Shown here in pieces: positions 49,828-52,563 of a DNA stretch of 64,000 nt (within the stretch, counting starts at the first letter, position 1; every line of letters begins with the position of its first letter). The notes under the pieces are model-generated. The model was not told the DNA's origin, did no database searches, and saw nothing but the letters and a program-made list of their open reading frames with translations. Source of the stretch: Arachidicoccus sp. BS20 (GTDB lineage Bacteria; Bacteroidota; Bacteroidia; Chitinophagales; Chitinophagaceae); the NCBI RefSeq assembly GCF_001659705.1, contig NZ_CP015971.1, forward strand, positions 1,054,001 through 1,118,000. Reading direction: 5' to 3'. The translations under genes and the position numbers were made by a program.

Positions 49828-50364
49828 TCAGAACTTGTTTTTCCACATCATGCTTTCAACGGGTCTATTAGGTTGTCCGCTGTATTTGGCGTTTTGCTTT
49901 TGGTTGTATTTAATTTCAATTTCGCCTTCCACAGGGAAATAAATCAATTGTCCAATCGGCATAAGACGATACACTCTTACAGGTTGCTTGCACGAAATTT
50001 CCAAAGTCCAGTTGCCGCAAAACCCTACATCGCCTTTCCCGGCCGTCGCGTGAATATCAATGCCCAAACGACCTGTGGAAGATTTCCCTTCAAGAAAAGG
50101 AACATGTGCGTGCGTTTCGGTGTATTCCTGCGTTACGCCAAGATAAAATTTATTCGGCTGCAATACAAAGCCTTCTTCGGGAATGTCAAAATATCTTATC
50201 GCATTGTGTTTTTTAGCATCCAATTCTTCATCTTCATACATCGCAAGCGTAGCGCCAAGATGCACATCGTAGCTGTTGCTCCCCAAAAATTCACGCGAGT
50301 ATGGCTCAATTAAAATCGTACCTTTTTCTATTTCTTCCAAAATACGTGTATCGGATAAAATCAT
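49828..50364 (-). CDS. dcd: dCTP deaminase
   Basis: 178 residues: ILIEPYSREFLGSNSYDVHLG near the N-terminus, LQPNKFYLGVTQEYTETHAHVPFLEGKSSTGRLGIDIHATAGKGDVGFCGNWTLEISC in parts, with the catalytic Glu in TLEIS, and the terminal YSGQPNRPVES. It converts dCTP to dUTP for thymidylate synthesis. CAAATATA at 50392-50399 is a -7 element (TATATTTG) on the minus strand for this gene. Confidence 0.95.
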   Translation of the reverse strand: MILSDTRILEEIEKGTILIEPYSREFLGSNSYDVHLGATLAMYEDEELDAKKHNAIRYFDIPEEGFVLQPNKFYLGVTQEYTETHAHVPFLEGKSSTGRLGIDIHATAGKGDVGFCGNWTLEISCKQPVRVYRLMPIGQLIYFPVEGEIEIKYNQKQNAKYSGQPNRPVESMMWKNKF

Positions 50365-50472
50365 TTTTGCTTTGTTTAAAAATTATATTTGCAAATATAT
50401 TGGTTCATAGCAAATAGTTCATGGTTCATGGAAATTGTTGAATTGCTTTATTGTTTAATTGAAGAAGATAAT

Positions 50473-50607
50473 ATGAGTACATATATCAAATTGTTTACAG
50501 CACAAAAAACAGGGAAGCAACGCCATAAAAAGAAAACATTTGTTGAAGAATATAAAGAGCTTTTAAAAGAGCATAACGTTGAGTCCGATGAAAAGTATTT
50601 GTTGTAG
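50473..50607 (+). pseudogene. C-terminal remnant of an IS200-like / REP-associated Y1 transposase
   Basis: The frame is open from 50389, but only the last 34 or so residues look conserved (QKTGKQRHKKKTFVEEYKELL, KEHNVESDEKYLL). This ending, HxKKTFxEEYxxLLxxxxVxxDEKYL, is that of Y1 transposases of the IS200/TnpA-REP type, so I read it as a fragment with the catalytic HUH and Tyr parts lost. It lies immediately before the palindrome array, which suits a REP-associated transposase. I base this on remembered family endings and could not align it. Confidence 0.6.
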
Positions 50608-50615
50608 CAGTGTTC

Positions 50616-50630
50616 AACCACTTCGTGGTT
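50616..50630 (+). repeat. Palindrome with TTC triloop after the transposase remnant
   Basis: AACCAC-TTC-GTGGTT, a 6-bp stem with the same three-base loop as the hairpins of the array that follows. Confidence 0.65.
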
Positions 50631-50655
50631 AGCCATCATCATATTTTTTCGGATT

Positions 50656-51904
50656 TTCTCCGCATTTCATGCGGAGAACAAGAAAAGCAAATGAAAAAAT
50701 AATAAAGTGTGTACGAAGCCCGAAGGATTTCAGTATCAATAACCCCGCATTTCATGCGGAGAACAAGAAAAGCAAATGAAAAAATAATAAAGTATGTACG
50801 AAGCCCGAAGGGCTTCAATATCAATAACCCCGCATGAAATGCGGAGGAAAAGAAAAGCAAATGAAAAAATAATAAAGTATGTACGAAGCTCGAAGGGCTT
50901 CAATATCAATAACCCCGCATGAAATGCGGAGGAAAAGAAAAGCAAATGAAAAAATAATAAAGTATGTACGAAGCCCGAAGGGCTTCAATATCAATAACCC
51001 CGCATGAAATGCGGAGGAAAAGAAAAGCAAATGAAAAAATAATAAAGTATGTACGAAGCCCGAAGGGCTTCAATATCAATAACCCCGCATGAAATGCGGA
51101 GGAAAAGAAAAGCAAATGAAAAAATAATAAAGTATGTACGAAGCTCGAAGGGCTTCAATATCAATAACCCCGCATGAAATGCGGAGGAAAAGAAAAGCAA
51201 ATGAAAAAATAATAAAGTATGTACGAAGCCCGAAGGGCTTCAATATCAATAACCCCGCATGAAATGCGGAGGAAAAGAAAAGCAAATGAAAAAATAATAA
51301 AGTATGTACGAAGCCCGAAGGGCTTCAATATCAATAACCCCGCATGAAATGCGGAGGAAAAGAAAAGCAAATGAAAAAATAATAAAGTATGTACGAAGCC
51401 CGAAGGGCTTCAATATCAATAACCCCGCATGAAATGCGGAGGAAAAGAAAAGCAAATGAAAAAATAATAAAGTATGTACGAAGCCCGAAGGGCTTCAATA
51501 TCAATAACCCCGCATGAAATGCGGAGGAAAAGAAAAGCAAATGAAAAAATAATAAAGTATGTACGAAGCCCGAAGGGCTTCAATATCAATAACCCCGCAT
51601 GAAATGCGGAGGAAAAGAAAAGCAAATGAAAAAATAATAAAGTATGTACGAAGCCCGAAGGGCTTCAATATCAATAACCCCGCATGAAATGCGGAGGAAA
51701 AGAAAAGCAAATGAAAAAATAATAAAGTATGTACGAAGCCCGAAGGGCTTCAATATCAATAACCCCGCATGAAATGCGGAGGAAAAGAAAAGCAAATGAA
51801 AAAATAATAAAGTATGTACGAAGCCCGAAGGGCTTCAATATCAATAACCCCGCATGAAATGCGGAGGAAAGAACAAACACAATAACAGAACCCTGGAAGG
51901 GTTC
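50656..51904. repeat. 85-bp tandem repeat array with paired triloop palindromes
   Basis: Hairpin 1 (CCGCAT-GAA-ATGCGG) starts at 50660 and recurs exactly every 85 bp up to 51850: 15 copies. Hairpin 2 (GAAGCCC-GAA-GGGCTTC) recurs in 14 units. A purine-rich spacer with AATAATAAAGTATGTAC separates them. The first hairpin 1 (50656-50678) is the most complete, a perfect 10-bp stem TTCTCCGCAT-TTC-ATGCGGAGAA; it and copy 2 have loop TTC where the rest have GAA. A C-to-T change in hairpin 2 occurs in units 3 and 6. The final copy is followed by a diverged GAACCCT-GGA-AGGGTTC. Apparent 69-residue frames on the minus strand repeat with the array and are not genes. Confidence 0.9.
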
Positions 51905-51939
51905 AATAAAAATAAAATTCATAAATCATATTTCATACC

Positions 51940-52563
51940 GTGCCGCTTTTTTATCAAAAGAAAATAAACGCAAATACCAAACTCGCTATTTGGAAAATAG
52001 AAGAGGATGAGAATTTCTTTCTTCAAAAAGTTCCGTTGAAAAAAAATATTTCGCATCCGCAAAAGCGATTGCAGCATCTTGCGGGAAGATTTTTATTGCC
52101 GCTACTGTTTTCCGATTTTCCTTTGGAGGAGATTTTAATTGCCGACAGCCGTAAGCCGTTTTTGCAAAACGAAGCGTATCATTTTTCCATTTCGCATTGC
52201 GGCGATTATGCAGCCGCCATCGCAAGTACAACACAACGTGTAGGCATCGATGCCGAATTATTTTCCGATAAAGTCATAAAAGTAAAAGAGAAGTTTTTGA
52301 ACGAAGAAGAAAAAAAATTTACTACGCAATACAACGATGATAAAAAATTATTGACTACGCTTTGGTGCGCAAAAGAAGCAACTTATAAATGGTACAGCTA
52401 TGGTTTATTAAACTTTAAAGAGAACATTTTATTGCAACCGGTTTCCTTCGGCGATGAAGGAATTATACCAACTATCTTTTTAAAAGAAGATAAAAAAACT
52501 GAACTGAAAACTAATTACAGCATCTTCTCAAACTTAAGCCTGGCATGGATTTCAGCGCAATAA
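51940..52563 (+). CDS. 4'-phosphopantetheinyl transferase superfamily protein
   Basis: 207 residues beginning with a GTG at 51940 (MPLFYQKKINANTKLAIWKI). It shows the Sfp/AcpS-type motifs: FSISHCGDYAAA, the metal-binding VGIDAELF, and WCAKEATYKWYS (WxxKEAxxK). It transfers the phosphopantetheine arm of CoA to carrier proteins. No ATG lies in frame upstream. An orphan hairpin follows the stop. Confidence 0.9.
   Translation: MPLFYQKKINANTKLAIWKIEEDENFFLQKVPLKKNISHPQKRLQHLAGRFLLPLLFSDFPLEEILIADSRKPFLQNEAYHFSISHCGDYAAAIASTTQRVGIDAELFSDKVIKVKEKFLNEEEKKFTTQYNDDKKLLTTLWCAKEATYKWYSYGLLNFKENILLQPVSFGDEGIIPTIFLKEDKKTELKTNYSIFSNLSLAWISAQ

Follow-up and report, generated by a model that had tools for sequence, protein, structure and literature searches.

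What is the origin of a run of near-identical hairpins that stands directly behind a fragment of a transposase gene? This question is raised by a 64,000-nucleotide stretch of the genome of Arachidicoccus sp. BS20 (contig NZ_CP015971.1, positions 1,054,001 to 1,118,000; hereafter the window), in which the remnant of an IS200-like Y1 transposase gene (tnpA) is followed by a palindrome array. The locus is likely to be a copy, now dead, of a TnpA-Y1 subclass 1.2 element that moved as single-stranded DNA, the ends of which were sets of three hairpins and in which half of the left-end set was amplified. The original prediction for this locus, made from the sequence of the window, had described a Y1 transposase remnant followed by a palindrome array and had connected the two by supposing that such enzymes act on hairpins beside their genes. 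The description was confirmed, and the interpretation as a whole was partly supported.

The remnant is an open frame of 44 codons (Table 1), the last 36 residues of which are 67% identical to an intact paralogue in the same genome (G000:C1:359703-360146; 148 residues). The fragment had been predicted to be the end of a transposase. Its C-terminal part is indeed present, but the DNA alignment showed that the first bases of the gene are retained as well, with a 13-bp deletion close to the start and a large one that removed most of the middle. The regions of tnpA that encode the HUH motif and the catalytic tyrosine fall in the deleted middle. A Pfam scan of the 44 residues gave three matches, all below the cut-offs. 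The intact transposase with the same C-terminus was found in this genome and not in five congeners, two of which encode a tnpA homologue (G005, 41% identity; G002, 24%) and three of which encode none.

The paralogue matched the Pfam family Y1_Tnp with 76 bits. Its score with the NCBIfam model for IS200/IS605 transposases (56.2) was narrowly over the cut-off of 55, and its score with the NCBIfam model for transposases of repetitive extragenic palindromes (REP) was 23.5, compared with a cut-off of 80. The predicted structure of TnpA (mean predicted local distance difference test score of 89) had its best matches among PDB folds in the ISDra2 and IS608 transposases, as determined with Foldseek, while the REP-associated tyrosine transposase (RAYT) of Escherichia coli (4er8) appeared at rank 30. 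A phmmer search of the PDB sequences had returned a short match to a designed protein as its sole result and was superseded by the fold search. His54, His56, Trp94, Tyr114 and Gln118 were invariant in 42 aligned proteins. The tyrosine motif of the paralogue, YVKNQEEHH, fits the pattern Y---Q--HH, which was present in 76 of 79 homologues. Beyond the tyrosine helix, the model placed a C-terminal extension with two helices (residues 127-137 and 144-147), and C-terminal positions were conserved in the alignment. By its length and the Y---Q--HH motif, the paralogue fits TnpA-Y1 subclass 1.2. The genome also contains a piece of a RAYT-like gene (L006, G000:C1:2946000-2946239; 61.8 bits with NCBIfam REP_Tyr_transpos, cut-off 80), which is flanked on both sides by CTTCGGAATT...AATTCCGAAG inverted repeats.

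Behind the remnant, the window contains, in this order, the hairpin AACCACTTCGTGGTT (H1), a middle hairpin with a TTC loop (H2), the array, and the closing hairpin GAACCCTGGAAGGGTTC (H1'). Tandem Repeats Finder located the array at positions 50669-51870 with a period of 85 bp, 14.1 copies, 98% matches and a score of 2313. The predicted numbers of 15 hairpins of one type and 14 of another in 85-bp units were reproduced. The hairpin CCGCAT(3)ATGCGG occurs 15 times in the window, with a GAA loop in 13 cases and a TTC loop in two, and the rest of the 3.49-Mb genome holds one copy of it, with one mismatch. The hairpin GAAGCCC-GAA-GGGCTTC occurs 14 times (11 perfect, two with one C to T change, one degenerate at the gene-side edge). 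Among the 12 inner units, ten are identical; two carry one and the same C to T change (positions 50885 and 51140), three units apart. Folded as single-stranded DNA, the unit reached -14.0 kcal/mol on the + strand and -13.5 kcal/mol on the - strand, compared with shuffle means of -3.8 and -3.3 kcal/mol (z = -6.2 and -6.5, respectively); none of 200 shuffles equalled it on either strand. The array is the amplified H3'-H2' half of a left end, set between a right end and the closing H1'. The longest hairpin had been predicted to lie nearest to the transposase and to be an ancestral target. The hairpin with the 10-bp stem is the longest, but AACCACTTCGTGGTT is the nearest, and the reading as an ancestral target was given up: the long hairpin is H2 of a three-hairpin right end, with H1 between it and the gene. 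Downstream of the intact paralogue lie CAACCACTTCGTGGTTG, an imperfect middle hairpin with a TTC loop, a third hairpin, an 89-bp tandem repeat in 3.6 copies and then, as the closing hairpin, GAACCCTGAAAGGGTTC. In this second array, the hairpins are broken in the same way in all three full units, but the final H3'-H2', a part of the closing left end, is intact.

Hairpin sets of this kind were also found beside related genes. Genome contigs were scanned with the paralogue, and the best 79 of 163 relatives (61-79% identity) were taken as related loci; their contigs were labelled Bacteroidota or subgroups thereof, with a few labelled as other phyla. The flanks of these genes (154 flanks of up to 150 bp) contained 249 perfect hairpins with a three-nucleotide loop. 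Thirty dinucleotide shuffles averaged 4.0 and did not exceed 8, so that the observed density was approximately 60-fold higher. Hairpin density was 17.7 per kb at 50-100 bp past the gene and 0.4 per kb at a distance of 1-2.5 kb. Loci with one or more such hairpins within 150 bp numbered 59 of 77 downstream, 63 of 77 upstream and 48 of 75 on both sides. Downstream, the set is laid out as H1, about 21 nt, H2, mostly 11-12 nt (consensus TTATTCA) and H3; upstream, it is the mirror image. Fifty H1-H2-H3 triplets were extracted (23 downstream, 27 upstream mirrored), with full triplets at 40 of the 79 loci and on both sides at 10. The triplet alignment (A1) comprised 48 of the 50, omitting L050 upstream, in which the order of the hairpins looked different, and L051 downstream. 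Changes on both sides were seen for 16 of 19 pairs in this alignment, a count that is biased since the sequences were chosen for their hairpins, and that was not relied on alone. Among 18 homologues of 36-68% identity from whole genomes, own paralogue excluded, 13 had hairpins with three-nucleotide loops within 150 bp. Right ends lying against left ends were found beside tnpA in three close pairs in G018 and G047, and likewise at L027. Two homologues of 36-39% identity (L138 on G036:C218 and L142 on G050:C32) stand beside arrays of 54-bp and 59-bp units, respectively, with other hairpins, e.g. TTGCTCCGATGGAGCAA.

The loops of these hairpins follow a rule. GNA or TNC made up 169 of the 216 triloops lying at most 110 bp from the gene, versus 75 of 213 beyond 1 kb; 12.5% would be expected from the letters alone. 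GNA and TNC are reverse complements of each other. Upstream or left loops were GNA in 81 cases and TNC in eight, and downstream or right loops were TNC in 77 cases and GNA in three, indicating that the ends of the element are mirrored. A GT[AG]G foot was present at just three of the 216 hairpins, rarer than at random places (83 of 1580). GNA triloops on G-C stems have been described as extraordinarily stable hairpins of single-stranded DNA (PMC4686876). The loop signature fits single-stranded DNA rather than RNA.

A covariance model (R1) of the triplets, in which this genome was not represented, was searched over 59 genomes, with laxer filters in 16 of them and stricter filters in 43. In the window, R1 matched the right end (50611-50703; 32.1 bits, E = 0.0019), the complete left end (85.6 bits, E = 3.6e-13) and, on the - strand, each of the 12 inner units (53.4-59.4 bits). 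It also matched both ends at the locus of the intact paralogue. Matches at E <= 0.01 were obtained in all five genomes with a tnpA of 59-100% identity versus five of the 54 others (Fisher p = 5e-5); these five were G005, G025, G031 and G034, with best homologues of 41-46%, and G017. When R1 matches were compared with the presence of any tnpA match in the genome, Fisher p was 0.012.

Copies of the ends also occur away from tnpA. Pairs were counted among 87 of 101 R1 matches (E <= 0.1 in the 16 genomes, E <= 0.01 in the 43), leaving out the 14 matches at the window locus (13 in the array plus the right end). Seventeen close pairs were found away from tnpA, 12 of which consisted of a left end and a right end and spanned approximately 150-280 bp in five genomes; this arrangement corresponds to the dispersed inverted doublets of REPIN and BIME repeats. 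A gene-less left-end/right-end pair of the own genome lies at 1608739-1608894. A DNA search of this genome with the tail of the array recovered the array, the paralogue locus and an H3'-H2' piece at 1608854 (E = 7e-4), all other matches having E >= 0.1. The maximum number of dispersed end matches in any of the 59 genomes was 13, which is a lower bound, the best 100-150 of hundreds of candidates having been scored in each genome. In G032, the stretch between a left and a right end (L200, G032:C23:75791-76072) retains just the final 26 codons of tnpA, with 22 of 26 residues identical to the G032 tnpA; this copy appears to be an intermediate between the full element and the gene-less pair, at a stage like that of the remnant in the window. 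The hairpins are not confined to the array, as single and paired copies were found elsewhere, and because the set recurs in this way and flanks many related transposase genes, the predicted link between enzyme and hairpins is supported. Several left-end/right-end copies in G032 (L201-L203) lie at or near a common CCGTCAACTTA. This sequence could be a site preferred as target, or else an extended terminal repeat. In G049 (C58:11003-11421), four R1 matches in the same direction form a tandem array; no tnpA match was found on this contig.

The insertion site is empty in relatives. The genes for a dCTP deaminase-like protein (dcd) and a 4'-phosphopantetheinyl transferase (4'-PPTase) are divergent neighbours in all five congeners, with a spacing of 75-124 bp compared with 1575 bp in the window, and in none of the five is the insert present between them. 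Since the TATATTTGCAAATATA palindrome was retained on the dcd side, the insert sits between this palindrome and the 4'-PPTase gene. The palindrome perhaps represents the overlapping divergent promoters shared by dcd and the 4'-PPTase gene, with a -7 box TAnnTTTG. With this palindrome on the dcd side of the insert, the leader of the 4'-PPTase gene may contain the array. The start codon of the 4'-PPTase gene is GTG here and in one congener, and ATG in the other four.

Table 1. Features of the locus and its neighbours, in window coordinates.
Feature	Position	Strand	Remarks
dcd (dCTP deaminase-like), left neighbour of the insert	49828..50364	-	Pfam DCD PF22769, E = 9.6e-36
TATATTTGCAAATATA palindrome, original intergenic region	50384..50399		beside dcd in 4 of 5 congeners
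tnpA remnant (IS200-like Y1)	50473..50607	+	start codon region and C-terminal 36 codons; residues 9-44 align to the paralogue
H1 of right end, AACCACTTCGTGGTT, TTC loop	50616..50630	+	position as H1 after the paralogue and related genes
H2 of right end, 10-bp stem, TTC loop	50656..50678	+	array begins here; expected H3 missing
Edge unit of array	50715..50799	+	H3' degenerate, H2 with TTC loop, 8 differences from the unit
12 units of 85 bp	50800..51819	+	H3' (GAAGCCCGAAGGGCTTC), AATATCAATAA, H2' (CCGCATGAAATGCGG), spacer
Complete left end	51819..51908	-	R1 match; last H3'-H2' and closing H1'
Closing hairpin H1', GAACCCTGGAAGGGTTC	51888-51904		differs from the array's other hairpins
4'-PPTase gene, right neighbour	51940..52563	+	Pfam ACPS PF01648, E = 3.3e-11

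We hypothesize that in this species, but in none of the five congeners, an element of the TnpA-Y1 superfamily inserted between dcd and the 4'-PPTase gene. Its ends, H3'-H2'-H1' on the left and H1-H2-H3 on the right, would have been mirrored around tnpA, with GNA loops on one strand and TNC loops on the other. We infer that the enzyme, probably the TnpA of the paralogue, would bind the end hairpins as single strands, would cut and rejoin the DNA via its HUH motif and Tyr114, and would move both the element with tnpA and the short gene-less left-end/right-end copies. At the window locus, the part of tnpA that encodes the catalytic middle would have been lost, and the right end (H1-H2) would have been brought up against an adjacent left end; some relatives show this order beside tnpA too. 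From this left end, the H3'-H2' half would then have multiplied into 14 tandem copies, with template slippage or unequal exchange as the most likely mechanism. Whether the subclass 1.2 TnpAs near the paralogue run, more generally, a new kind of single-strand transposon is evenly balanced in our judgement. Such a transposon would have mirrored triple hairpins read through their GNA loops, would give rise to gene-less copies, would be prone to form arrays and would reshape intergenic regions in Bacteroidota and some other phyla.

Several observations weigh against a dead subclass 1.2 element with three-hairpin ends, or limit its reach. By the test used, 39 of the 79 related loci had no full triplet, and five of 75 had no hairpin with a three-nucleotide loop within 150 bp on either side. 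Such hairpins were also missing within 150 bp of five of the 18 homologues of 36-68% identity and of all five homologues of 28-31% identity. A third IS200-like gene of this genome (L005, G000:C1:182224-182622; 28% identity) has the Y---Q--HH motif and lacks the three-hairpin set. Because of L005 and the distant homologues, the hairpins belong to a part, not all, of subclass 1.2. The upstream left end is missing at the remnant as well as at the paralogue, so neither tnpA copy of this genome is a complete element, and the genome has no more than one complete dispersed pair and two weak single matches. R1 matches were obtained in G017, where tnpA was not found (assembly 72% complete), and G010 (99% complete), which has no tnpA match, gave four weak ones (E 0.06-0.08). 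Inspected by eye, the similarity in the flanks of left-end/right-end copies seems to end near H3 in G018 and to extend further in G032; since the two disagree, no element boundary was drawn.

The original prediction had considered that the array was expanded by the enzyme, and this could have happened by repeated cutting and rejoining at the hairpin feet or by local insertion, unit by unit, before tnpA decayed. Arrays are indeed more frequent near the gene: of 103 tnpA genes, the paralogue among them, 30 had a tandem array with a period of at least 40 bp no further than 1 kb away, and at 19 of these the unit contained a perfect hairpin. In the other 584 kb of the 103 loci, such arrays occurred at 10 loci, three of which had hairpins. 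Clusters of tandem REP doublets forming hairpins (REPINs) in Pseudomonas likewise adjoin RAYT genes (PMC3116915, available text). However, this enrichment may in part reflect the setting, because the stretches near tnpA hold more intergenic DNA, and at 11 of the 30 loci with a near array no unit has a perfect hairpin. Direct-repeat R1 matches also occur away from any found tnpA (G049:C58, G034:C124). The units of the paralogue array must have multiplied after their hairpins had decayed, because all three full units share the hairpins in their already broken form, and the C to T change that recurs three units apart in the window suggests that a block of three units was copied together. These two observations favour slippage or unequal exchange, and we consider construction of the array by TnpA rather unlikely.

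A dead mobile element whose left-end half was amplified also accounts for the locus better than two readings that separate the array from tnpA. The array could be a transcribed structural repeat, as had been predicted alternatively, or a protein-binding array with a function for the host, e.g. in the control of 4'-PPTase, with the remnant being incidental. The near identity of the units and the possible position of the array in the 4'-PPTase leader, if the old divergent promoter is still active, would agree with this. Yet the Rfam scan of the window gave nothing at the gathering score, all five congeners manage without the array, and hairpin sets of the same type flank related tnpA genes in many bacteria. 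Their loops belong to the DNA-stable GNA class (PMC4686876) and have a strand polarity relative to tnpA. The transcribed repeat found no support, and a host function of either form is improbable. It is still harder to believe that the locus is a plain IS200 (class 1.1) relic which happens to adjoin an unrelated satellite-like repeat. The IS200/IS605 score of the paralogue just over the NCBIfam cut-off would be in line with such a relic, but parts of the unit match the ends of the paralogue and the triplets of its relatives, and the Y---Q--HH motif together with a length of 148 residues fits subclass 1.2 and not class 1.1, as these are described in the available text of PMC6006769.

The closest known relatives are the TnpA-Y1 enzymes of subclass 1.2 (Quentin et al. 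2018, PMC6006769), which share with the paralogue the length of 148 residues, the WQ and Y---Q--HH motifs and the occurrence mostly in Bacteroidota. The available text of that survey describes the subclass as lacking REP and as generally without typical terminal IS200 structures, whereas the clade studied here has flanking hairpins, with full sets at about half of the related loci. Judged from sequence, enzymes around the paralogue often have hairpin ends of their own, mirrored and GNA-looped, of which the available text of PMC6006769 gives no report. In searches of open-licence PMC papers, no report of hairpins for subclass 1.2 was found. The sole description of the subclass that was found (PMC6006769, available text) presents it as free of REP and of typical hairpin ends, so that no substrate was known for the enzyme. 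The set described here provides a concrete candidate substrate and a rule for its loops, which are GNA on one strand.

The IS200/IS605 elements, such as IS608 and ISDra2, share the transposase fold, the HUH motif, the Y---Q motif and hairpins that flank the gene. Known elements of this family move via a circular single strand, with excision and insertion beside a fixed tetranucleotide. Their left- and right-end hairpins have the same orientation on one strand. In contrast, the ends described here are mirrored, with GNA on the left and TNC on the right. The known elements also have one subterminal hairpin per end according to the available text of PMC6006769, as opposed to mirrored sets of three. 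In the REPtrons of E. coli and other TnpA-REP systems, tnpA is flanked by hairpin repeats which are also found elsewhere in the genome (PMC8266576, available text), as is the case here; they differ by the GT[AG]G foot, which is nearly absent from our hairpins, and by the class 2 motif Y---NP, which our enzymes lack.

The REPINs of Pseudomonas are similar in that inverted doublets of hairpin sets form the dispersed unit and that tandem clusters occur beside the transposase gene (PMC3116915, available text). They differ in several respects: each half here consists of three hairpins instead of one REP, there is no GTAG foot, the enzyme has Y---Q--HH in place of Y---NP, few copies were found per genome among the candidates scored, and the tandem unit is half an element. 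Arrays beside Y1 genes thus have precedents, since ordered tandem REPIN clusters are known in Pseudomonas, three of them beside RAYT genes (PMC3116915, available text). As a lineage of their own, the hairpin sets found here would also allow the joint evolution of hairpin repeats and low-copy Y1 enzymes to be studied, along with the growth of tandem hairpin arrays.
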